From the NCBI RefSeq assembly GCF_000024005.1, contig NC_013132.1, forward strand, positions 8,860,001 to 8,924,000: a stretch of DNA of 64,000 bases. The letters run 5' to 3'. Below the pieces are notes generated by a model that was not told the DNA's origin, did no database searches, and was given only the letters and a program-made list of their open reading frames with translations. Shown piece after piece: positions 42,264-52,785 of this stretch. This DNA comes from Chitinophaga pinensis DSM 2588. GTDB taxonomy: Bacteria > Bacteroidota > Bacteroidia > Chitinophagales > Chitinophagaceae. How positions within the stretch are numbered: the first letter of the stretch is position 1; the number at the start of each line of letters is the position of its first letter. Both the position numbers and the translations under genes were made by a program.

Positions 42264-43838
42264 ATGAAACAGTTCGTACTGGTTAGTGTGCTTGTGCTAC
42301 TATTTATAAATAAGCAATATGCGCAAACCAAAGTTTTTAAAGAAGTCGGTAATAGTATTTCTTCAAGCATTAAAGCCATCATACAGGACGACAACCTGGT
42401 AGGCTACCTTTCTTTCACAGAATTAGAACGTGCAAACGCCGATTCCTTCCATTACAGGTTGACTATCATGGATGAAAACCTCAATGATATCGGCGAGTTG
42501 AATTTCACAGAACTCAAATTAGATCTGCAGGCAGTCGCTTTTGAGCAGGATGTAATGTGCCTGGCCTACCTTAAAAGCAACTTTGTTGGTTATGGCGGCA
42601 AAAAAAGAAAAGAGCGTAAAGAACAATTGAGTAACGCTTCCTTATCTGTATATACGCAATTCGTAAGTCTGGATGGTAAGATTATCAATTCCAACACCGT
42701 TAAAGCAAATGTGAAGATCATGTCTGCCTACAATACAGGCTACGATCGTAACAAGATTGATGACGGCGTGCTGAAACATCGCGTACAGCTGAAAAACATG
42801 AAAGGAAAAGGTTTTGCATGTTTTTACGGTGACGACAACAAATGTTATGTATCTGTATTCAATACAGAAGGAAAGAGTGTATGGAATAACGACTTCATGC
42901 AAGGCGCTGACAATTTCGTCATGCTGACCTCACAGCACGATATTTATCTGCTCTACAAAAAGAAGGAGAAATTACTGGAAGGTGGTTATTGGCTGATGGG
43001 CTATAACGTAGACAATAATGCAGCCTTCGCAAAATATGACCTCAGTGATAAAAACGGCCATTCCTTCAGCGTGCGCGCTTTCGCCAATGACCCTATCACC
43101 GGAAGACCTTATCTCGCCGGTATGATACTGCACAACCGCAAGGGAAATTCTACCATGACCGTTAAACAGCTGGCGCATGGTCCTTATATCGGCGCGTTCA
43201 CCGCACAAATCAAAAATTCCGGCACCAGTGATATTGAAACTGTGATCTCCGACTGGTCAAGCCATTCACAGTCTGAATTTTCTTCTAAAGGCCGTTATCA
43301 GCCCACTAAATCATTTATGCTGTTCCAACCTGCATTTAAAGATTACGATGGCAATGCTTACTTTGCGGGTACTTCCTTTAAAAGAAAGCCAAAATGGGGT
43401 GCAATCGGCGCTACTGTAGCTACCTCTCCCCTGATCATACCGCCTTTATGGATTCTCATGTTTGCCGGTACGCAGAAAATACAGACAAGAGACGCTTTGC
43501 TGTTTAAGCAGGATAAGAAGGGAAATCTCTCATACGTGACTGCAATTCCTTCTGCACATAGCCGCTATATAACAGGTAAGGTGTCATTACTGCAAAATAT
43601 GGCCATCCCGGAATATGACATGGTGGTGAATAGCGATACAAAATCCAACTACCTTGTTGTGAGCGACAAGAAAAATGTCAACATTTATAGCGTTAATCAG
43701 AAAAAAGTAATCCGTACCATTCCCCGTAAAGAAGGATCGGTAACGACCACTATCTACCCTGCGAAAGAAGGGCATATTATGGTATCTGAATACAACAAAC
43801 AGGAGAAAACCAGGAAGTTCTCCATTGAGTCCCTGTAA
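42264..43838 (+). CDS. Secreted protein of unknown function
   Basis: The 524-residue protein has a clean Sec signal peptide (MKQFVLVSVLVLLFINKQYA-Q). The mature part is basic and beta-rich, with repeated short units of the kind seen in propeller-like proteins (DNLVGYLSFTE, DIYLLYKKKEKLLEGGYWLMGYN, NAYFAGTSFKRKPK). One hydrophobic stretch in the middle (about 386-413, IGATVATSPLIIPPLWILMFAG) could be a membrane helix or hairpin. I recognise no family. It ends at a perfect bidirectional terminator. Confidence 0.75.
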   Translation: MKQFVLVSVLVLLFINKQYAQTKVFKEVGNSISSSIKAIIQDDNLVGYLSFTELERANADSFHYRLTIMDENLNDIGELNFTELKLDLQAVAFEQDVMCLAYLKSNFVGYGGKKRKERKEQLSNASLSVYTQFVSLDGKIINSNTVKANVKIMSAYNTGYDRNKIDDGVLKHRVQLKNMKGKGFACFYGDDNKCYVSVFNTEGKSVWNNDFMQGADNFVMLTSQHDIYLLYKKKEKLLEGGYWLMGYNVDNNAAFAKYDLSDKNGHSFSVRAFANDPITGRPYLAGMILHNRKGNSTMTVKQLAHGPYIGAFTAQIKNSGTSDIETVISDWSSHSQSEFSSKGRYQPTKSFMLFQPAFKDYDGNAYFAGTSFKRKPKWGAIGATVATSPLIIPPLWILMFAGTQKIQTRDALLFKQDKKGNLSYVTAIPSAHSRYITGKVSLLQNMAIPEYDMVVNSDTKSNYLVVSDKKNVNIYSVNQKKVIRTIPRKEGSVTTTIYPAKEGHIMVSEYNKQEKTRKFSIESL

Positions 43839-43998: not shown

Positions 43999-44568
43999 CT
44001 ACTTACCCGACAGGTAATTTAAAACCTGCTGAGCATGCTCATCGCCTTTCATGAAATCGCGGAAACTGTAAACGATCGTACCATCCAGGCCAATCACAAA
44101 GGTTTCACGACCGCTCACCTTTACATTGTTTCCAAAATCCTGTTCCTTCACACCGAACTTGTTCAACACAACATTGTCCGGATCGCTCAGCAATGTAAAT
44201 GGCAGACGATTCTTTTTTGCAAACGCCTTGTGACTTTCCACAGTACCATTGTTGATACCGATAACCATAGCATCGGCATCCTTATACTTCTCATAAGCAT
44301 CTCTGAAAGCACATGCTTCCTTGGTACAAACAGGACTTTCATCTTTTGGATAAAAGAAAATTACAAGTTTCTTCTTCCCCAGCACATCTGCCAGGTTAAA
44401 AGTCTTCCCGTCCTGATCCTTCAGTGAAAATTCGGGTACATTCTCTCCCTTAGCCAGCGTATGTTGTTCCTGCATTGTCTGTGCTTTTGCAGCCGGAGCA
44501 GCAATAAAAAGGCTGCACCCGATAGCCAGCATGGCAACGATCGATACTTTCTTAATGTTCATTCTCAT
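43999..44568 (-). CDS. Secreted PrxQ/Bcp-type peroxiredoxin
   Basis: This thiol peroxidase (189 residues) has a signal peptide (about 1-29, ending AKA-Q), so it acts in the periplasm. The peroxidatic Cys81 and resolving Cys86 are in SPVCTKEACAFRD, the five-residue spacing of atypical two-Cys PrxQ. FFYPKDE precedes them, and RETFVIGLDGTIVYSFRDF lies near the end. It needs a thiol donor; the divergent operon encodes DsbD and an exported thioredoxin, which fit. Its promoter carries the shared redox dyad (44633-44652), so it should be induced together with that operon. Confidence 0.93.
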   Translation of the reverse strand: MRMNIKKVSIVAMLAIGCSLFIAAPAAKAQTMQEQHTLAKGENVPEFSLKDQDGKTFNLADVLGKKKLVIFFYPKDESPVCTKEACAFRDAYEKYKDADAMVIGINNGTVESHKAFAKKNRLPFTLLSDPDNVVLNKFGVKEQDFGNNVKVSGRETFVIGLDGTIVYSFRDFMKGDEHAQQVLNYLSGK

Positions 44569-44605: not shown

Positions 44606-44652
44606 CAAATCTCCGGTGAATTATGCGGATGAATTTTCACTTTGGTTAAAAT
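44606..44652 (-). promoter_or_regulatory. Redox-regulon promoter element, copy 1 (peroxiredoxin)
   Basis: Read on the minus strand: ATTTTAACC-AA-AGTGAAAAT (44652-44633), then 23 nt, then TTTG of a -7 box GAGATTTG (44613-44606). The ATG follows 37 nt later. The first base of the -7 box is G rather than T. Confidence 0.75.
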
Positions 44653-44730
44653 CGGCTGATTTTTTTCTGATACACAAAAATTGCCCCCAAGCTCCTTCAT
44701 AAAATTGTCATGCGTTCATTTATCTCCTTG

Positions 44731-44777
44731 ATTTTAACTAAAGTGAAAATCGGTGGACAGGATTTTAGTCACTTTTG
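44731..44777 (+). promoter_or_regulatory. Redox-regulon promoter element, copy 2 (dsbD-trx-msrAB operon)
   Basis: ATTTTAACT-AA-AGTGAAAAT (44731-44750), then 23 nt, then TTTG of CACTTTTG (44770-44777), 42 nt before the dsbD ATG. Orientation and spacing are identical to the other four copies. Confidence 0.78.
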
Positions 44778-44819
44778 TTACATCACTAAGGTGCAGACTA
44801 CACCGCAATAAAATAAAAC

Positions 44820-46796
44820 ATGAAAAAGCTATTAATAATTATTGGTTGTCTGATGCATTTTGCCGCGTTCGCCCAGATTGACAACCCGGTCCACTGGACC
44901 TTTACAGCAGCCCCTGCGGGTGATAACAAGGTAGAGATCAGCGCTACCGCCCAGATCGATGAAGGCTGGCATTTATACTCACAGTTCCTGAAAGAAGGCG
45001 GACCCGTTCCCACCTCCTTTCAGTTTGACAACGCAGAAAGTTACCATCTGGTAGACGGTGTTACCGAAAGTCCTGCGGCTACAAGCGGGTACGATTCGAC
45101 TTTCGAAATGACCATCCTTTACCATGAGAAAAGTGTCACCTTTAAACAACTGATCACCTATACAGACCCTGCTGCACAAATTAAAGGACAGGTGCATTAT
45201 ATGGTGTGCAGTGGCCAGAAATGCCTCCCCCCTACGGATGTAGACTTTGAAGTAGCCGTCGATGCGACCGTAAGTCATGCAGCGAATACAGCGCAGGTAC
45301 AAAAAGACAATGCTCCTGCTGATAAACAAAGTCCGGTGAATGATAGTGGTAGTTCCATTTTATCCATCTTCCTCGCAGGATTTTTAGGTGGCCTTGCTGC
45401 ATTCTTCCTGCCATGCATTTATCCGATGGTACCCTTAACCGTATCATTCTTCACCAAACAGTCCAAAACACGCAGACAGGGCATCCGCGCAGCCATCATC
45501 TATGGTTGTTCAATCATTGTGATCTATGTAGGATTGGGCTTACTCATTACGGCTGTTTTTGGCGCCTCTGCATTGAATGAAGCCTCCAGCAGCGCAGTAT
45601 TCAACCTGTTGTTCTTCACCATCCTGGTAGTATTCGCCTTATCATTCCTTGGTGCATTTGAGATCACGCTTCCATCTGTGTTTGTCAACAGCATTGATCA
45701 GAAGTCAGGTAAAGGTGGCTGGATCGGATTATTCTTTATGGCCTTTGCATTGGCACTGGTATCATTCTCCTGCACTGGTCCGCTGATAGGTACACTACTC
45801 GTTGAAGCAGTAAGCAAGGGTAGCTATCTGGGGCCGGCCACTGGTATGTTTGGTTTCTCGCTGGCCCTCGCTTTACCATTTACTTTATTTGCCATCTTTC
45901 CTTCATGGCTGAAAAGTTTACCGAAATCAGGTGGCTGGTTAAATTCCGTAAAAGTTACACTCGGATTACTTGAACTGGCTCTCGCCTTTAAATATCTTAC
46001 CAATGTGGATCTGGCTTACCATTGGGGGCTGCTGAGCCGCGATCTGTTCCTCGTCATCTGGATCATCATTTTTGGTGTACTGGCTTTCTATCTGTTAGGG
46101 AAAATCAGATTAAGCCATGATTCCGAAGTAAAGACGCTCTCCATCCCCAGACTATTACTTTCTATGCTGGCACTGGCCTTTACCGTTTACCTCATTCCCG
46201 GCCTCTTTGGGGCTCCACTGAAAGGGATCAGCGGATGGCTGCCACCACAACAAACGCAGCAATTCACCCTGGGTGCCGCTAATGCAGATAAACCGGCTGG
46301 AAGTTCCACCCATAAATATGCAGGTTTATTCCACGCCCCCGAGAATATCGATGCTTTTTACGATTACGATGAAGGCATGGCATACGCAAAGAAAATGCAT
46401 AAACCTGTCCTCCTCGATTTCACTGGCTGGAGTTGTACCAACTGCAGAAAAATGGAGGCGGCCGTTTGGTCTGACCCGGAGGTATTGAAACGTTTAAAAG
46501 AAGACTATGTGCTGATCTCCCTGTATGTGGACGACCGCACCTCTCTTAGCAACACAGAAAAGTATGTTTCTAAAGTTTCATCAAAATCCATCAATACAAT
46601 CGGACAGAAATGGAGCGATCTGCAACAGGAACGTTTCAACACAAACGCTCAGCCGTTTTATGTGATCCTGGACCCGGACGGTCAGCCAACAGCTGAACCG
46701 AGAGCCTTCAATTTAGACATTAAAGCATACGTCGATTTTCTTGACATGGGTATTTCCTCAGTAAGAAAAAAATTAACTGTTCAACTATCTAACTAA
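44820..46796 (+). CDS. dsbD: Thiol:disulfide interchange protein DsbD
   Basis: This inner-membrane protein (658 residues) carries electrons from cytosolic thioredoxin to periplasmic thiol proteins. A signal peptide (about 1-19) leads into a DsbD-alpha-like domain with C130 and C135 (MVCSGQKC). The transmembrane domain starts near 178 with AAFFLPCIYPMVPLT and carries a second Cys in FSCTGPLIGTLL. The C-terminal thioredoxin-like domain has Cys539-Thr-Asn-Cys542 in GWSCTNCRKME. All three cysteine pairs needed for the relay are there. It leads an operon with thioredoxin (8-nt gap), msrA (4-nt gap) and msrB (overlap), which are the likely electron acceptors. Confidence 0.95.
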   Translation: MKKLLIIIGCLMHFAAFAQIDNPVHWTFTAAPAGDNKVEISATAQIDEGWHLYSQFLKEGGPVPTSFQFDNAESYHLVDGVTESPAATSGYDSTFEMTILYHEKSVTFKQLITYTDPAAQIKGQVHYMVCSGQKCLPPTDVDFEVAVDATVSHAANTAQVQKDNAPADKQSPVNDSGSSILSIFLAGFLGGLAAFFLPCIYPMVPLTVSFFTKQSKTRRQGIRAAIIYGCSIIVIYVGLGLLITAVFGASALNEASSSAVFNLLFFTILVVFALSFLGAFEITLPSVFVNSIDQKSGKGGWIGLFFMAFALALVSFSCTGPLIGTLLVEAVSKGSYLGPATGMFGFSLALALPFTLFAIFPSWLKSLPKSGGWLNSVKVTLGLLELALAFKYLTNVDLAYHWGLLSRDLFLVIWIIIFGVLAFYLLGKIRLSHDSEVKTLSIPRLLLSMLALAFTVYLIPGLFGAPLKGISGWLPPQQTQQFTLGAANADKPAGSSTHKYAGLFHAPENIDAFYDYDEGMAYAKKMHKPVLLDFTGWSCTNCRKMEAAVWSDPEVLKRLKEDYVLISLYVDDRTSLSNTEKYVSKVSSKSINTIGQKWSDLQQERFNTNAQPFYVILDPDGQPTAEPRAFNLDIKAYVDFLDMGISSVRKKLTVQLSN

Positions 46797-46804
46797 TCAG
46801 CATC

Positions 46805-47290
46805 ATGAGAATTAAATTATTCAGATCAGCTATGCTGGCAGGCTGCCTCGCACTGATCGCATCCGCTTATTCTTCCAGGGTCCTTGCACAGCAAAAAGCC
46901 CCGCAGGAAATCAAATTCAGTTCCAAAGCCTATAAAGAGGTATTGGCAACCGCTAAAGCCGCTCACAAAAAAGTCTTTATAGACGCCTACGCTACCTGGT
47001 GTGCGCCCTGTAAAGAACTCCGTAAACATACTTTTAACGATCCTAAAGCCGCGGCCTATTTCAATAAAAACTTTGTCAATTTCACGATTGATGTTGAAAA
47101 AGGAGAAGGTATAGCATTGGCAAAAACCTGGCAGGTAGACGGACTGCCCACCTTACTGATTGTTGATGAAAAAGGTCAGGTACTGGCAAACCACGTTGGA
47201 TTTGTGGATGGAGATGGTCTGATCCAGTTTGCAAAAGAGGCAACAGAAAATATACAGTCAAAAGGCAGCAAACCCGCTTCTAAACGCTAA
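46805..47290 (+). CDS. Exported thioredoxin-like protein
   Basis: The 161-residue protein has a signal peptide ending about VLA-Q at 28. The thioredoxin fold has the active site YATWCAPCKEL (C66, C69) and the cis-Pro loop WQVDGLPTLLIVDEKG. The Cys-Ala-Pro-Cys dipeptide and the DAYATWC strand resemble the DsbD gamma domain. It is the probable soluble carrier between DsbD and the two methionine sulfoxide reductases encoded next, and possibly the divergent peroxiredoxin. Confidence 0.92.
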   Translation: MRIKLFRSAMLAGCLALIASAYSSRVLAQQKAPQEIKFSSKAYKEVLATAKAAHKKVFIDAYATWCAPCKELRKHTFNDPKAAAYFNKNFVNFTIDVEKGEGIALAKTWQVDGLPTLLIVDEKGQVLANHVGFVDGDGLIQFAKEATENIQSKGSKPASKR

Positions 47291-47294
47291 AGGA

Positions 47295-47909
47295 ATGAAA
47301 ATAAAACAACTATTCAACGTCTTGCTGGCGGTAGCGCTTTTTGCAGCTTTGGGTGTACATGCGAAAAGTGCACCCAACAATGATACGGCCACCTTCGCGA
47401 CAGGTTGCTTCTGGTGCGGTGAAGCGAAGTTTTCACAATTGAAAGGTGTGATCAAAGTAACTTCCGGTTATACAGGCGGACGTATTGCAGATCCACGCTA
47501 CTCACTGGTGAGTACCGGCACGACCGGTCACGCGGAAGCTTTCAATGTGATTTATGACAGTACCGTCATCACTTACGATGAACTGCTGGAAGCCTTCTTT
47601 CTTTCCCATGACCCGACAGAATTAAACAGGCAGGGAAATGACGTCGGCACACAGTATCGTTCCGCCATATTTTATCATAACGACGCACAAAAAGAACGGG
47701 CTGCCTACTATCTGAATAAATTCACCGAACAGCATATCTATCCCAAACCCATCGTTACGGAACTGACACGCTTCACGGTGTTTTATGAGGCAGAAACATA
47801 TCACCAGCAATACTATAAAAAACATCCGACGCAAGATTATTGCCGCTACGTTATCCAGCCAGAACTGGAAAAATTCAAACTCATCTTCAAAGACAAATTA
47901 AAGCAATGA
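47295..47909 (+). CDS. msrA: Exported peptide methionine sulfoxide reductase A
   Basis: The enzyme reduces Met-S-sulfoxide in proteins (204 residues). The catalytic Cys38 is in TGCFWCGEAKF, with GVIKVTSGYTGG, STGTTGHAEAFNV and FLSHDPTELNRQGNDVGTQYRSAIF as family motifs. The N-terminal signal peptide (about 1-23) places it outside the cytosol, whereas most MsrA proteins are cytosolic. The ATG at 47295 is chosen, 4 nt after the thioredoxin stop; an earlier in-frame ATG lies inside that gene. It overlaps msrB by 4 nt (ATGA). Confidence 0.95.
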   Translation: MKIKQLFNVLLAVALFAALGVHAKSAPNNDTATFATGCFWCGEAKFSQLKGVIKVTSGYTGGRIADPRYSLVSTGTTGHAEAFNVIYDSTVITYDELLEAFFLSHDPTELNRQGNDVGTQYRSAIFYHNDAQKERAAYYLNKFTEQHIYPKPIVTELTRFTVFYEAETYHQQYYKKHPTQDYCRYVIQPELEKFKLIFKDKLKQ

Positions 47910-48421
47910 AAAAGATCCTGATTTATAGCGCCCTGCTGATGTTGATTAGTATCAGCAGCTTCGCCCAGAATGAAAAATCTACCCGGGGACACGAAAACAA
48001 TCCCTGGTATTCCAACACAGACACATCCAGGCTGACGGTAAGTAACGTAGAATGGAAAAAGGTGCTTCCGGGCGCCCTTTATGCCGTCGCAAGGGAAAAA
48101 GATACAGAAAGACCATTTACCGGTAAATACTGGAAAAGCACAACCCGTGGCACCTATTATTGTGCTGTTTGCGGCAACCTGCTGTTCCGCTCGGACGCAA
48201 AATTTGCCAGCAGCTGCGGATGGCCCAGTTTCTACGAACCAAAGCGCGCAAGTGCCGTACGTTACCAGGAAGATTACTCTGTCGGTATGCACCGGACGGA
48301 AGTATTGTGCGGGCGTTGTGATTCCCATCTCGGACACATCTTCGACGATGGTCCTGCACCTACTTACAAGCGCTTTTGCATGAACTCGGTATCTCTTGAT
48401 TTTGAACCGGATAAAAAATAA
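47906..48421 (+). CDS. msrB: Exported peptide methionine sulfoxide reductase B
   Basis: The enzyme reduces Met-R-sulfoxide (171 residues). It has a signal peptide ending SFA-Q (about 20), zinc-binding pairs C86/C89 (CAVCG) and C135/C138 (CGRC), the signature ASSCGWPSFYEP, DSHLGHIFDDGP, and the catalytic Cys158 in KRFCMNSVSL. It is the last gene of the dsbD operon. Together the four genes form a complete chain for repair of oxidised methionines in exported proteins. Confidence 0.95.
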   Translation: MKKILIYSALLMLISISSFAQNEKSTRGHENNPWYSNTDTSRLTVSNVEWKKVLPGALYAVAREKDTERPFTGKYWKSTTRGTYYCAVCGNLLFRSDAKFASSCGWPSFYEPKRASAVRYQEDYSVGMHRTEVLCGRCDSHLGHIFDDGPAPTYKRFCMNSVSLDFEPDKK

Positions 48422-48449
48422 AATCGGAAAAGTGGCTCATTTCCCTTTG

Positions 48450-48496
48450 TATTTAACTTAAGTGAAAATCGCGCGGAGGATTTTGAGTGAACTTTG
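48450..48496 (+). promoter_or_regulatory. Redox-regulon promoter element, copy 3 (membrane protein gene)
   Basis: TATTTAACT-TA-AGTGAAAAT (48450-48469), then 23 nt, then TTTG of GAACTTTG (48489-48496), 29 nt before the ATG at 48526. The downstream spacer also resembles copy 2 (GGAGGATTTT against ACAGGATTTT). Confidence 0.78.
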
Positions 48497-48525
48497 ATGT
48501 AACACGACGACAAAAATACGACATC

Positions 48526-49116
48526 ATGAAATTAACAAATCAATCCAACACCCCCCTTTCGCATGAGGTGATTGAAACAGCAAAATCACTCCGCACGCTT
48601 TACTTCACACGTGCTGCATTCTCTATCATCTGGGTACTGCTGGTAGCTACCGTAGCTAAAACCGATGCTATTGCAGCGACCATCCTGTTCATCATATACC
48701 CGGCCTGGGATGCATTGGCCACTTTTTTTGATATCAAGGCCAATCCTGGCGCTACCAACAAAACGCCACAATATGTTAATATGGCCATCAGCATTATTAC
48801 GACTATCGTAGTCATCTTTGTCATTCAGAAAGGTATTCCTGAAGCACTGATCACATTTGGTGTATGGGCATTGCTGACAGGGCTGATCCAACTTATTCTT
48901 GGTCTTCGCCGCCGCAAACAAATGGGGGGTCAGTGGCCGATGATCCTCAGCGGCGGCCAATCTATGCTGGCTGGTGGTTCCTTTATCTATATGGCGCATG
49001 CGCCCAATCAAGGGATCACCACATTAGCAGGCTACGCTGCTTTTGGCGCCTTCTACTTCCTGCTTTCTGCCTTCCGCTTAGGCAAAACGATCAAAAACAA
49101 TGCTGTTACGGCGTAA
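48526..49116 (+). CDS. DUF308/HdeD-like six-helix membrane protein under the redox promoter
   Basis: The 196-residue integral membrane protein has about six hydrophobic helices in three pairs (within roughly 27-65, 78-120 and 137-180). A basic turn LGLRRRKQMGGQWPM lies between pairs two and three. The layout resembles the HdeD/DUF308 family. There is no Cys in the protein, so a direct thiol role is excluded. What links it to oxidative stress is the promoter element it shares with the peroxiredoxin and Msr genes. The ATG at 48526 is chosen because an upstream in-frame codon at 48487 lies ahead of the -7 box. Confidence 0.75.
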   Translation: MKLTNQSNTPLSHEVIETAKSLRTLYFTRAAFSIIWVLLVATVAKTDAIAATILFIIYPAWDALATFFDIKANPGATNKTPQYVNMAISIITTIVVIFVIQKGIPEALITFGVWALLTGLIQLILGLRRRKQMGGQWPMILSGGQSMLAGGSFIYMAHAPNQGITTLAGYAAFGAFYFLLSAFRLGKTIKNNAVTA

Positions 49117-49145
49117 TATTTTATACGCTGGTCACTAGCTGCCAG

Positions 49146-49212
49146 ATAGCCAGCCATGTGTCGTCAATTCAAGAGCGTGCTATATCTTGTTTTGACACTA
49201 TTGGCTGGCTAT
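49146..49212. repeat. Inverted repeat behind the membrane protein gene
   Basis: ATAGCCAGCCA (49146-49156) and TGGCTGGCTAT (49202-49212) pair perfectly over 11 bp. A further GTGTC/GACAC pairing lies inside, around a loop of about 30 nt. It lies in the 245-nt gap before the outer-membrane protein gene; no T-tract follows, and nothing else was seen there. Confidence 0.5.
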
Positions 49213-49361
49213 TTATTCCCTGATAATACTTCCACTGCCGCATATGCCCCTCACCGGATAAGCGATTGCTTTCCGGACGGGAATTACATACTGTTTATAT
49301 TTCATCACATCCGGACGATCGCCGCCGCGTATCGTCCGTTAAGCATCAATTACAACAATTA

Positions 49362-50360
49362 ATGAAAATCAACTTCCTGGTGACCGGTATGCTCTTATGT
49401 ACCACCGGCACATACGCCCAAAACATGTTCAGTATGGCCAGCCAACACCCGGCCGATACTACTAAAAGCGAAGCCATGGAACAAGCCATCCGCTTCTCCT
49501 CCCTTCGCCAGGCATCTATCACGGCAGATTTCTTTGGCTCAGGTCATTTCGATTCAAAACTGAACGAAAAAGATTTCGCCAATGGCAAAAGCCGCAATGC
49601 AAGGATCAGCTCTTACGTAACTGTTCCCATCAGCAGCTGGAACGGAAATACGATCGGCGCGTCTGTCTATCATACAGAAACATTTTTTAATGTCCGGGAG
49701 GTTGAAAACAAACTGGAGAGTCCAACAGTCAACGTAGGCGATATGTCCAAAAGCACACTTGGTCTGTCCATCAACTACTCAAGAATAGATGCACTCTTCC
49801 ACACGCCGGTTGTTTATTCTGCTGTTGTTACAGGTATCTCCGATAACCTGAAAACCATCAGAAGATTCAACTTCAATGGTAGTATCGCCTTTCCATTAAA
49901 GCGGAATGAAAACACCTACCTATCCGTAGGTGCTATCTTGCTGATTGACCCTTCCGCACCGCTGCCGGTATTGCCTGTAGTCAATTACTTCCATAAACTC
50001 AATCATCATGGCTTAGAACTGATTGTAGATCTTCCTCAGGGTGCCATGATCAAACAATCATTATTCCGTAATGCCTGGGTGTATGTTGGCGCTAGTTACA
50101 ATACCTATGCAACATTCTATAAATCAGATAACCCTGCGTTACCTGAACATTTCAGCTATAACACAGTGGAAGTCAAGAGTGGCCCTGGTTTTGAATACCT
50201 GCTCGGAAAACATGTCATTCTCGGTGTAAAAGGCGGTGTTAACAATGTGCTCACCGCGAGAGCCTTCGGGAAGAACAACAGCTATAATGATTCATTCATC
50301 ATGACCACCAATAAATCCACCTTTGCGGGTGAGTTCCGGATATCTTTACTGCCCTTCTAA
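49362..50360 (+). CDS. Outer-membrane beta-barrel protein, DUF6268-like
   Basis: The 332-residue protein has a signal peptide ending TYA-Q at about 20, and alternating beta-strand character throughout (SSYVTVPISSWNGNTIGASVYHTETFF, NAWVYVGASYNTYATFY). The final strand FAGEFRISLLPF ends in Phe, typical of outer-membrane barrels. It resembles DUF6268 proteins, whose role is unknown. The ATG at 49362 is taken because it starts the signal peptide. A strong terminator follows. Confidence 0.75.
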   Translation: MKINFLVTGMLLCTTGTYAQNMFSMASQHPADTTKSEAMEQAIRFSSLRQASITADFFGSGHFDSKLNEKDFANGKSRNARISSYVTVPISSWNGNTIGASVYHTETFFNVREVENKLESPTVNVGDMSKSTLGLSINYSRIDALFHTPVVYSAVVTGISDNLKTIRRFNFNGSIAFPLKRNENTYLSVGAILLIDPSAPLPVLPVVNYFHKLNHHGLELIVDLPQGAMIKQSLFRNAWVYVGASYNTYATFYKSDNPALPEHFSYNTVEVKSGPGFEYLLGKHVILGVKGGVNNVLTARAFGKNNSYNDSFIMTTNKSTFAGEFRISLLPF

Positions 50361-50390
50361 TAATAGAGCAGCTATATATCCATAAAACCG

Positions 50391-50426
50391 AAAGGCCGTA
50401 TCCTACTAATGATACGGCCTTTTTTA
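50391..50426 (+). terminator. Terminator after the outer-membrane protein gene
   Basis: AAAGGCCGTATC...GATACGGCCTTT with an 8-nt loop and a TTTT tail. Confidence 0.9.
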
Positions 50427-50529
50427 ACTGATTGATTAGCTCTCTAAAACCTCGCAGACAGTTAAGAAGTTGTATTCCTGTCGCTTTAACAGACAGTAAA
50501 TAATAACAGGAGCAAACAAACAGTGTGTG

Positions 50530-50571
50530 AAAGAAAAAATTGCGGAGCTTAGTCGTCCGTCTAAACTCCGC
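50530..50571 (-). terminator. Terminator of the osmC-trxB operon
   Basis: Read on the minus strand: GCGGAGTTTAG...CTAAGCTCCGC followed by AATTTTTTC, 27 nt after the trxB stop. Confidence 0.8.
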
Positions 50572-50597
50572 TTTAGTATAGCTATTGTATGAACCAC

Positions 50598-51581
50598 TTA
50601 ACTTGCCTGCTGAAGATCTCCTATTACAAATGAAAGCGCCGCTTCACGCTCATTCAGAAAACGTTCTGCATCTAAAGCTGCCATACAACCCGTTCCGGCG
50701 GCAGTGATCGCCTGACGATACACAGGATCCTGCGCATCGCCACAGCAAAACACACCAGGAATATTGGTCGCTGTTGATCTTGGATTAGTTTTGATATAAC
50801 CCGCTTCATCCATGTCTATTGCGCCACTGAATATCGCGGTGTTGGGTGTATGACCAATGGCGACAAAAAATCCGGTTACCGGAATAGCCGATTCCTGCTT
50901 CAGTTGATTGTTGTATACTTTTATACCTGTCACACTCCGGCCATCTCCCAGCACCTCAAGGGTCTCGGTATTGTACAACACCTCGATATTGGGAGTATTA
51001 AGTACACGCTGTACCATCAGTTTAGAAGCACGGAACTCATCACGGCGAACCAGCATATATACCTTATTGGCCAGCTTAGACAGATAAACAGCTTCCTCTG
51101 CAGCAGTATCTCCTGCGCCAACAAGCGCCACATCTTTTCCACGGAAAAAATAACCGTCACATACCGCACAGGCAGAAACACCGGAACCATTGTATTTCGC
51201 TTCTGATTCCAGCCCTAACCACTTCGCAGAAGCACCAGTGGAAATAATGATGCTGTCGGCCATGATCTTCTTTCGCTCGTCTACCGTTACCTCATATGGA
51301 TAAGTACTGAAATCTACACCACTGACATAATCATAACGGATATCTGTACCAAAGCGAAGTGCCTGCATACGAAAATCTTCCATCATAACAGGACCGGTAA
51401 TACCAGTGGGATAACCCGGAAAGTTTTCTACTTCTGTAGTCTTTGTCAGTTGTCCGCCTGGTTCAATGCCGGTATACATTACCGGCTGCAGACCAGCACG
51501 TGCAGCGTAAATAGCGGCGGTATATCCTGCAGGACCGGATCCGATGATCAGACACTTTATATGTTCAGTTTCAGCTAACAT
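50598..51581 (-). CDS. trxB: Thioredoxin-disulfide reductase
   Basis: This FAD/NADPH enzyme (327 residues) reduces thioredoxin in the cytosol. The FAD motif is GSGPAGYTAAIYAARAG (14-30), the redox pair C138/C141 is in SACAVCDGYFF, the NADPH motif GAGDTAAEEA follows, and the FAD-closing strand is GVFCCGDAQDPVYRQAITAAGTG. The ATG at 51581 overlaps the end of osmC by 11 nt, so the pair is one operon under redox element copy 4. TrxB supplies the electrons that thioredoxin passes to DsbD, so the cytosolic and periplasmic arms of the pathway share a promoter type. Confidence 0.96.
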   Translation of the reverse strand: MLAETEHIKCLIIGSGPAGYTAAIYAARAGLQPVMYTGIEPGGQLTKTTEVENFPGYPTGITGPVMMEDFRMQALRFGTDIRYDYVSGVDFSTYPYEVTVDERKKIMADSIIISTGASAKWLGLESEAKYNGSGVSACAVCDGYFFRGKDVALVGAGDTAAEEAVYLSKLANKVYMLVRRDEFRASKLMVQRVLNTPNIEVLYNTETLEVLGDGRSVTGIKVYNNQLKQESAIPVTGFFVAIGHTPNTAIFSGAIDMDEAGYIKTNPRSTATNIPGVFCCGDAQDPVYRQAITAAGTGCMAALDAERFLNEREAALSFVIGDLQQAS

Positions 51582-52044
51582 GGTCAACGGGTTTAGCGTT
51601 TCCGTCAATGTGTTGGTGTAAACCCTTATAATTAACATTCAGGCTGATCACAACACCGGTTAATGCTTTAGACAACAGACAGTTCTGTTTAGCGCCGATG
51701 GCATATTCCAGAAATGCTTCTTCAGATAAGCCCTCAATCGGCGAAGCATCTAACGTCAGTTCAATATCACTGATGCTGCCTTTTGACGGAGCGATGGTAA
51801 CAACAGCAGTCGTATCAAGATCTGCTACTTTCAGCCCTGCCTGTGATAAAGCATAGGTCAATGCCATTGTAAAACAACCGGCATGTGCAGCCGCCAGTAA
51901 CTCTTCAGGATTAGTACCGATACCATCGGCAAAGCGGGTATTGAAAGAGTAACGGGTTTTGTTTAATACAAGGCTATCTGTAGTTAATTCACCATGACCT
52001 GTGCTCAGGTCACCATTCCAGTGAGCTTTTGATGATCTTCTCAT
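51571..52044 (-). CDS. OsmC-family peroxiredoxin
   Basis: This cytosolic hydroperoxide reductase (157 residues) is of the OsmC subgroup. The first redox Cys is in [18 protein letters not shown] and the second in [12 protein letters not shown], the two conserved cysteines of the family. [20 protein letters not shown] is the family signature. The ATG at 52044 is chosen because the -7 box at 52073-52066 lies downstream of an earlier in-frame ATG (52086). It probably removes organic hydroperoxides using lipoyl or thioredoxin-linked thiols. Confidence 0.93.
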
Positions 52045-52065
52045 TGTCGTAATATTTTGTTGATG

Positions 52066-52112
52066 CAAAGTTGCACTGAAACACATTCTTGTTTTTTCAC
52101 TTTAGTTAAATC
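52066..52112 (-). promoter_or_regulatory. Redox-regulon promoter element, copy 4 (osmC-trxB operon)
   Basis: Minus strand: GATTTAACT-AA-AGTGAAAAA (52112-52093), then 23 nt, then TTTG of CAACTTTG (52073-52066), 21 nt before the osmC ATG. Confidence 0.75.
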
Positions 52113-52139
52113 AGACAGAAAAGTTTTACTACTCGGCTG

Positions 52140-52186
52140 TTTTTAACTTTAGTGAAAAATAAGCAGCTGTAAAAGGAGGACTTTTG
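52140..52186 (+). promoter_or_regulatory. Redox-regulon promoter element, copy 5 (peroxiredoxin-like gene)
   Basis: TTTTTAACT-TT-AGTGAAAAA (52140-52159), then 23 nt, then TTTG of GACTTTTG (52179-52186), 20 nt before the ATG at 52207. Copies 4 and 5 are back to back, driving divergent genes. Confidence 0.78.
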
Positions 52187-52206: not shown

Positions 52207-52785
52207 ATGAATTTAAAAATCAACCAGCCCGCGCCAGATTTCATTACCCGGGACATTTGGGGGAATACGGTGCAGCTCAGCCAGCTGCGGGAACAAAAGG
52301 TACTACTGACATTCTACCGGCATGTTGCCTGCCCGGTTAATCACTTGCGCTTTCAGGAACTGAGAACGTATGAAAAGGAGTTCTGTAAAAAGAAGCTGGC
52401 CGTACTGGCAGTGTATGAGAGCAGCAAAGACAACCTGCTGCGTTATAGTGAAGATGAAAATTATTACGCCAGGTTAATAGCTAACCCGGAGTTTGATCTC
52501 TACGAAAAGTATGATATAGAGCTGAACACGCTCAAGCTATTATTCTCTATGTACAATGGAGGTCCGGCAAAAGCCGCAGAAGGGTTAAAACTGATGAAAC
52601 ATCGTTTCAAGGCAGAGGGACATAACAATCTGATGGGAGGGGACTTTCTCATTGGCGAAGACGGCCTCCTGAAACAGGTGTATTACAACCAGTTCCTGGG
52701 AGACCATCTGCCAACGAAAGAAATACTGGCATTCATTAATGATCCTGATTATAAAGTCATCGGTTCATCCACTTGTTGCGATTAA
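52207..52785 (+). CDS. Peroxiredoxin-like (AhpC/TSA) protein
   Basis: The 192-residue cytosolic protein has a thioredoxin-like fold. APDFITRDIWGNTVQLSQL is the AhpC/TSA opening strand, and LLTFYRHVACPVNHLRFQEL holds the likely peroxidatic Cys, with Pro next to it but without the usual Thr three residues before. GGDFLIGEDGLLKQVYY is the closing strand. A Cys-Cys pair sits at the extreme C-terminus (SSTCCD) and might resolve the disulfide. The ATG at 52207 is preferred over a TTG at 52198. Its promoter carries redox element copy 5. Confidence 0.85.
   Translation: MNLKINQPAPDFITRDIWGNTVQLSQLREQKVLLTFYRHVACPVNHLRFQELRTYEKEFCKKKLAVLAVYESSKDNLLRYSEDENYYARLIANPEFDLYEKYDIELNTLKLLFSMYNGGPAKAAEGLKLMKHRFKAEGHNNLMGGDFLIGEDGLLKQVYYNQFLGDHLPTKEILAFINDPDYKVIGSSTCCD

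Follow-up and report, generated by a model that had tools for sequence, protein, structure and literature searches.

A palindromic element at a fixed distance from the -7 box as putative operator of a Crp/Fnr-type class II activator in Chitinophaga pinensis and other Bacteroidota

In a 64,000-nucleotide stretch of the Chitinophaga pinensis DSM 2588 genome (contig NC_013132.1, positions 8,860,001 to 8,924,000), referred to here in its whole length as the window, five promoters carry the same inverted repeat, or dyad, at an exactly fixed distance from the -7 box. With a probability of about 0.82, this dyad is the operator of a single class II activator of the Crp/Fnr fold, which is encoded outside the window and would bind with its centre at -41.5. 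Computation shows the site and its fixed spacing, the co-occurrence and linkage of the regulator gene, the return of the same kinds of target in more than one order of Bacteroidota, and a sister regulator whose site on homologous targets has diverged. Bacteroidota carry many Crp/Fnr paralogues per genome and, to our knowledge, a site, a signal or a regulon is known for few of these. No description of this regulon was found in the open-access literature searched (PMC), subscription papers being outside the scope of that search.

The dyad pattern was scanned over the full window, with 100 dinucleotide shuffles as control. The 14-mer TTWACNNNNGTGAA matched at five places, compared with a mean of 0.38 and a maximum of 3 matches in the shuffles, and these are exactly the five places picked out in an earlier note made from the sequence alone. 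All five fit the 20-nt consensus TTTAAC-YWWA-GTGAAAA, and their flanking sequences differ. Specifically, dyad 1 (44633..44652, minus strand) is the putative operator of a peroxiredoxin gene, with its -7 box at 44606..44613 (minus strand, TTTG end 44606-44609), and dyad 2 (44731..44750, plus strand) that of dsbD-trx-msrA-msrB, with its box at 44770..44777 (plus strand, TTTG end 44774-44777). Dyad 3 (48450..48469, plus strand) would serve a DUF308 gene, its box lying at 48489..48496 (plus strand, TTTG end 48493-48496). Lastly, dyad 4 (52093..52112, minus strand; box 52066..52073, minus strand, TTTG end 52066-52069) and dyad 5 (52140..52159, plus strand; box 52179..52186, plus strand, TTTG end 52183-52186) are the putative operators of osmC-trxB and of an AhpC/TSA-like gene, respectively. 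TTTG starts 26 nt past the 14-mer, that is 23 nt past the 20-nt element, at all five sites, as the note had also stated. TTTG occupies 0.5% of the positions of the window, and a tetramer common to all five downstream stretches at one offset did not arise once in 200,000 shuffles.

The same arrangement was followed through the complete C. pinensis genome (handle G000), a single contig of 9,127,347 bp that contains the window. Nine exact copies of TTAACYWWAGTGAAAA-N24-TTTG were found, five in the window and four elsewhere: before a gene for a major facilitator superfamily (MFS) pump at 1566706 (Pfam MFS_1 in a relative of the pump, which is presumably of the EmrB/DHA2 type), before the decayed remnant of a DUF308 gene at 1654463, before a second periplasmic peroxiredoxin gene at 3750809 and before a gene for an exported alpha/beta-hydrolase at 3756109. 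With at most one mismatch there were 9 places against 0 for the reversed control, and with at most three mismatches 16 against 10. The earlier note had named a scatter of sites over unrelated genes or coding DNA as the result that would speak against it; instead, TTTG starts 24-82 nt upstream of a start codon at all nine exact sites, eight of which precede intact genes and one the decayed DUF308 remnant. The exact site before this short remnant (L113 ~9506; 1654463-1654506 of the contig) lies beside the regulator gene, and the intact DUF308 gene is the one in the window cluster.

The candidate regulator gene itself (1653557-1654183, 208 aa, PF00027) is flanked by genomic dyads at 1653490 and 1654493, and its own promoter bears the mirrored dyad TTCACTTAAGTTAAAA, likewise followed by N24-TTTG. 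The position of a Crp/Fnr-type gene between two copies of the dyad supports the guess in the earlier note that the site belongs to this family, and the check proposed there, a search for a co-occurring Crp/Fnr gene in relatives, was run for both the linked orthologue and the sister regulator described below. Orthologues (70-99%) were present in 11 of the 79 Chitinophaga genomes, C. pinensis included. The strict dyad TTTAACYWARGTKAAA was also found in 11 of the 79, namely in 8 of the 11 orthologue-positive genomes and in 3 of the 68 others (Fisher 9e-7). These three are G026, which has a broken regulator, and G018 and G056, whose single strict dyads lack TTTG at the spacing. Genomes G049, G004 and G078 fall outside the strict pattern and carry ATTAACTTAAGTGAAT instead. 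When up to two mismatches were accepted, a dyad with exact TTTG spacing lay within 1 kb of the regulator gene at all 11 Chitinophaga orthologue loci. In G026 (L054 / L131) the regulator is split into two pieces, and the dyad before the DUF308 gene of that genome is intact, with exact spacing.

Beyond Chitinophaga, scanning named genomes turned up 46 loci, of which 44 are orthologues at 69-99% identity from Pedobacter, Mucilaginibacter, Dyadobacter, Larkinella, Niastella, Taibaiella, Ohtaekwangia and other genera. Every TT[AC]AC-YWWR-GT[GT]AA in these 44 loci was taken without requiring TTTG, which yielded 80 distinct dyads. TTTG stood at exactly +26 in 64 of them, three of its four letters did in 15 (a loose class, because the better of two orientations was taken) and neither in one; at least one exact-spacing dyad occurred in 39 of the 44 loci. 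Counted by genome, with four of the 46 loci omitted (second loci of a genome, or genomes under G handles), 42 named genomes remained, of which 30 had the exact pattern and none its reversed control. Two of these genomes entered with a non-orthologue, and the figure for genomes with an orthologue is 30 of 40. Of 295 genomes scanned in the class, 8 had the pattern and 3 the regulator (at least 66% identity), all 3 being pattern-positive; the reversed control matched in 2. In a tree, the C. pinensis regulator groups with Pedobacter proteins (98/92), away from most Chitinophaga orthologues, although the bootstrap is not fully settled. Because of this grouping and the presence of the gene in only 11 of 79 congeners, the sequences suggest that the regulator has spread horizontally.

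Promoter geometry was examined in 88 target sites, the 19 sites before the regulator's own gene being kept apart in the logo and six omitted (two before other Crp/Fnr genes and four without a convincing gene). The base 3 nt upstream of TTTG is A in 99% of the 88, although it had not been selected for. It corresponds to the A in TAnnTTTG, the -7 box of Bacteroidota, and the preceding T position is mostly G. No conserved TTG-like element at -33 was found between the dyad and the -7 box in these 88 sites. The dyad forms a palindrome of 16 bp, free of mismatches at many of the sites, that lies 36.5 nt from the end of the box; the median distance from TTTG to the start codon is 32 nt (89 assigned sites). 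In the Flavobacterium psychrophilum promoter map, TAnnTTTG is placed at -12 to -5 (PMC9723704). Applying this box position puts the dyad axis at -41.5, close to the value of about -41 given in the earlier note; on the F. psychrophilum map, the axis would be that of a class II activator.

The C. pinensis regulator has the overall CRP/FNR fold, with a cyclic-nucleotide-monophosphate (cNMP)-binding-type barrel (PF00027, 30 bits over a cut-off of 27.5; 35.1 bits in the Ohtaekwangia orthologue), a dimer helix and a helix-turn-helix. It contains only two cysteines, C51 and C98, both in the sensor barrel. These were invariant in 120 of 120 orthologues, the best 120 of 1,466 homologues having been examined, and in 13 of 13 sisters; C98 was missing in all eight other Crp/Fnr matches, and the first-cysteine motif in one distant class-two copy (the second copy in G410). 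Such conservation suggests that the pair may be a thiol switch. In a weak 17% alignment the residues Glu72, Arg82 and Ser83 of the CRP cAMP pocket fall on Ser88, Cys98 and Trp99. Because C98 sits at the arginine that in CRP holds the cAMP phosphate, the ligand is probably not a cyclic nucleotide. Identity with cAMP-CRP was ruled out on the absence of the cAMP-contact residues in the same weak 17% alignment, and identity with the oxygen-sensing 4Fe-4S protein FNR because only two cysteines are present, where FNR has four for its cluster and three of these are N-terminal.

An independent view of the operator comes from a sister regulator that shares 40-50% identity with the first (E up to 1e-40). 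Nineteen OsmC loci were compared, five in regulator-positive and 14 in orthologue-negative genomes. In the former, the dyad stands at the spacing in four of five (two with TTTG, two with TTTA; none in G049). In the latter, TTTAACC-[CT][AG]-GGTTAA[AT] takes the same spacing in 12 of 14 (TTTG or TTTA), and all 12 belong to genomes with the sister regulator; the site was found neither in G065, where neither regulator reaches the threshold, nor at the second copy in G013. The pattern TTTAACCYRGGTTAAA-N25-TTTR occurs in 15 of the 79 Chitinophaga genomes, and all 15 belong to the 22 that carry the sister regulator (no match of the control; Fisher 3e-11). Outside Chitinophaga, where seven regulator- or sister-positive genomes and 43 others out of the 295 were scanned, the TTTAACCYRGGTTAAA pattern with at most one mismatch was found in five of the six genomes with a sister regulator and in none of the 44 others. 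Exact TTTAACCYRGGTTAAA-N25-TTTR has no copy in C. pinensis despite the sister gene there (L086, 45%; 8798874-8799452, some 61 kb before the window begins). Sister sites precede genes for OsmC, alpha/beta-hydrolases, a BCP-type peroxiredoxin and the four-transmembrane (4TM) protein that is also a target of the first regulator.

The two classes differ in the recognition helix. The first has TNPSLSR (TTPSLSR in G004 and G078), with the Asn in 118 of the same 120 orthologues, the best of the 1,466 homologues; the sister class has QGPSLSR, and also EGPS, AGPS, RGPS and KGPS. The distinguishing residue, 186, aligns with Arg180 of CRP and Val208 of FNR in a weak alignment. Since a class-specific helix goes with a class-specific core at homologous targets, regulator recognition helix and operator core change together, as judged from these sequences. 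A hybrid site, TTTAACTTAGGTTAAA, lies at 5186270 in C. pinensis before a gene for a BCP-type peroxiredoxin, and the homologous promoters of G076 and G068 have the sister-type core CCTGG. Next to sister regulators (L295-L322), sister-type sites repeatedly stand before genes for alpha/beta-hydrolases of several kinds, which may hint at the signal.

Targets of the first dyad were assigned from the downstream reading frame for 113 distinct sites (at most two mismatches, exact TTTG, identical 80-nt surroundings counted once). These comprise genes for the DUF308 membrane protein (38), the regulator itself (19), the 4TM membrane protein (10), OsmC, peroxiredoxins and alpha/beta-hydrolases (7 each), DsbD (5), MsrB (4), AhpC/TSA proteins and MFS pumps (3 each), other Crp/Fnr proteins (2) and, once each, a flavoprotein disulfide reductase, an Rce1-like protease and a SnoaL-like protein, with five sites left without a family; the counts are biased and not to be taken as regulon sizes, because loci were drawn near regulator or pattern matches. 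The DUF308 protein and the regulator are the most frequent targets, and therefore the core regulon consists of the regulator together with one small membrane protein, with the redox set as an accessory layer. The description of the targets as redox genes in the earlier note holds in C. pinensis and in some of the Pedobacter and Mucilaginibacter cases; over the 113 sites, the targets of widest occurrence are the DUF308 protein and the regulator. Among the redox genes, those for OsmC are found under the site also in Dyadobacter, Pedobacter and Mucilaginibacter, for DsbD in Pedobacter and Mucilaginibacter, for a peroxiredoxin in Pedobacter and for MsrB in Niastella and Parachryseolinea. The 4TM protein had only Pfam matches under the cut-off, and NCBIfam gave no name for it, the regulator or the DUF308 protein. 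The flavoprotein disulfide reductase under a site in Pedobacter hartonius (L222, 5717-7105) passed the NCBIfam cut-off for dihydrolipoyl dehydrogenase only, the RclA and hypothiocyanous-acid reductase models staying under theirs. Two-mismatch dyads with exact TTTG spacing also stand before other Crp/Fnr paralogues (L117 ~9941 and L179 ~3575), possibly as a regulatory cascade or by chance.

We infer from sequence that the regulator binds the dyad, activates rather than represses, and answers oxidants or electrophiles. In the proposed mechanism, a homodimer would bind TTTAAC-YWWR-GTKAAA centred at -41.5 and, by class II activation, would switch on sigma-A promoters that have the AnnTTTG -7 box and no recognisable -33 element, its own promoter being acted on as well; the oxidant or electrophile would be sensed through the invariant C51 and C98. 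A repressor that blocks polymerase at -41.5 until an oxidant frees the promoter shares all the operator and regulator evidence, and repression is known among some Crp/Fnr proteins. We nevertheless regard this as unlikely: the -7 box spacing is exact in 64 of the 80 dyads, as contact with polymerase would need, operators of repressors usually vary in position, and there is no conserved -33 element to give a strong promoter independent of an activator. It is quite improbable that another regulator, either a further Crp/Fnr paralogue or the product of the adjoining AraC-type gene, uses the dyad and that the linked Crp/Fnr gene is a target only. Paralogues are indeed many (48 candidate stretches in the C. 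pinensis genome at first look), an AraC-like frame adjoins the regulator gene in C. pinensis and the regulator gene is itself a target at 19 of the 113 sites, but, in a co-occurrence comparison that covered these two groups, the linked orthologue goes with the dyad over 79 genomes, and the sister protein goes with another core before homologous target genes. The fixed spacing and the missing -33 TTG would also suit a promoter of an alternative sigma factor of the extracytoplasmic function type with the dyad as one of its parts; this very improbable alternative was dropped, since a 16-bp palindrome 36.5 nt from the box end is too distant for a -35 element and the downstream AnnTTTG fits the sigma-A -7 box in the F. 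psychrophilum map (PMC9723704). Chance or a dispersed repeat, for which the short, AT-rich dyad and the single matches in regulator-negative genomes might speak, was discarded as next to negligible on the window and spacing shuffles, the reversed controls (0/42), the 64/80 exact spacings and the differing flanks of the five sites.

Several observations weigh against a single activator acting through this dyad. For the strict dyad, the reversed pattern gave 12 matches in 9 Chitinophaga genomes, against 41 true matches on both strands. Two strict dyads without TTTG at the spacing occur in regulator-positive G024 and G047 (L132 and L134), a single 1-mismatch match was found in each of G034 and G040, which are regulator-negative, and the -7 box of the G076 DUF308 promoter is TTCG. 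Twelve of the 42 named genomes have no exact site, 10 of these being orthologue-positive, and five regulator-negative genomes among the 295 of the class have one exact match each. In the scan of DsbD promoters (30 Chitinophaga loci among 35 matches), the dyad was present in two, G000 and G076, and was absent from the 1,500 nt upstream of the match at the more distant DsbD genes of regulator-positive G010, G077, G002 and G004. Redox-gene membership is variable among genomes because of these DsbD gaps, the site-less orthologue genomes and the dyads without TTTG.

Compared with known systems, the fold and class II geometry are familiar, the operator is new, the recognition helix and cysteine pair are unusual, and there is a sister class. 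CRP and FNR of E. coli, where -41.5 is the class II position, are alike in fold (a cNMP-type sensor and a C-terminal helix-turn-helix), in the palindromic operator and in its -41.5 centre. Unlike them, the regulator lacks cAMP-contact residues and iron-sulphur cysteines, has Pro187 in place of Glu181 of CRP or Glu209 of FNR (weak alignment), would use the operator TTTAAC-YWWR-GTKAAA and has the Bacteroidota -7 box as promoter partner. PrfA, another member of the Crp/Fnr family, recognises TTAACANNTGTTAA; the TTAAC half-site is shared, a likeness of the sites alone, while the site centre differs by two bases and the regulator differs. CprK and FLP-type Crp/Fnr proteins carry redox cysteines; they have the same fold and, as in the protein described here, cysteines that could form a disulfide, but here the two are in the sensor barrel at positions 51 and 98. 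The regulons of OxyR (LysR type), OhrR (MarR type) and RclR (AraC type) have similar targets (OsmC/Ohr, peroxiredoxin, Msr and flavoprotein disulfide reductase), under regulators that are not of the Crp/Fnr type.

Overall, one Bacteroidota Crp/Fnr orthologue group thus gains a candidate operator, a promoter geometry, a set of targets (core and accessory) and a sister class of differing specificity, and osmC, the periplasmic peroxiredoxin and dsbD-msr gain a candidate activator in Bacteroidota of this kind. The two specificity classes are a natural pair for a protein-DNA recognition code, and oxidant sensing by a cyclic-nucleotide fold would be a possible new mechanism. More tentatively, and somewhat less probably than not, the two-cysteine Crp/Fnr family could be an activator system for thiol oxidants that is of major importance in environmental Bacteroidota and has gone unrecognised. 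Its two specificity classes, one with mostly Asn at residue 186 and the operator core YWWR, the other with Gly and CYRG, would have target families in common, replace each other at osmC and spread horizontally. Sensing would take place where the cyclic-nucleotide site has been vacated, by a disulfide or by modification of a thiol.

The gene identities behind the window dyads, as read in the earlier note, agreed with Pfam throughout. Dyad 1 precedes the gene of a periplasmic AhpC-TSA peroxiredoxin of 189 aa (43999..44568, minus strand; signal peptide by eye). Dyad 2 heads genes for a DsbD-type thiol:disulfide interchange protein of 658 aa (44820..46796; Pfam DsbD), a thioredoxin-fold protein (46805..47290; Pfam thioredoxin), the peptide methionine sulfoxide reductase MsrA (47295..47909; Pfam PMSR) and MsrB (47906..48421; Pfam SelR domain), all on the plus strand, the starts of the last two having been picked by eye. 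The DUF308-like membrane protein, of the commonest target family, is encoded at 48526..49116 (plus strand; 25.2 bits over a Pfam cut-off of 25). Behind dyad 4 lie genes for an OsmC-type peroxiredoxin (51571..52044, minus strand; Pfam OsmC, with TIGR03562 over its cut-off) and for a thioredoxin reductase-like flavoprotein, the trxB of that note (50598..51581, minus strand; Pfam Pyr_redox_2, the pyridine nucleotide-disulphide oxidoreductase family; start picked by eye), and behind dyad 5 one for an AhpC/TSA-like redox protein (52207..52785, plus strand; Pfam AhpC-TSA, a SelL-related model being under its cut-off). A gene for a DUF6770 protein (42264-43838) adjoins the redox cluster, with no dyad match upstream of it. 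The DUF308 gene is followed in the window by one for an exported 332-aa protein without a Pfam match (49362-50360), a relative of which also follows DUF308 in G010.

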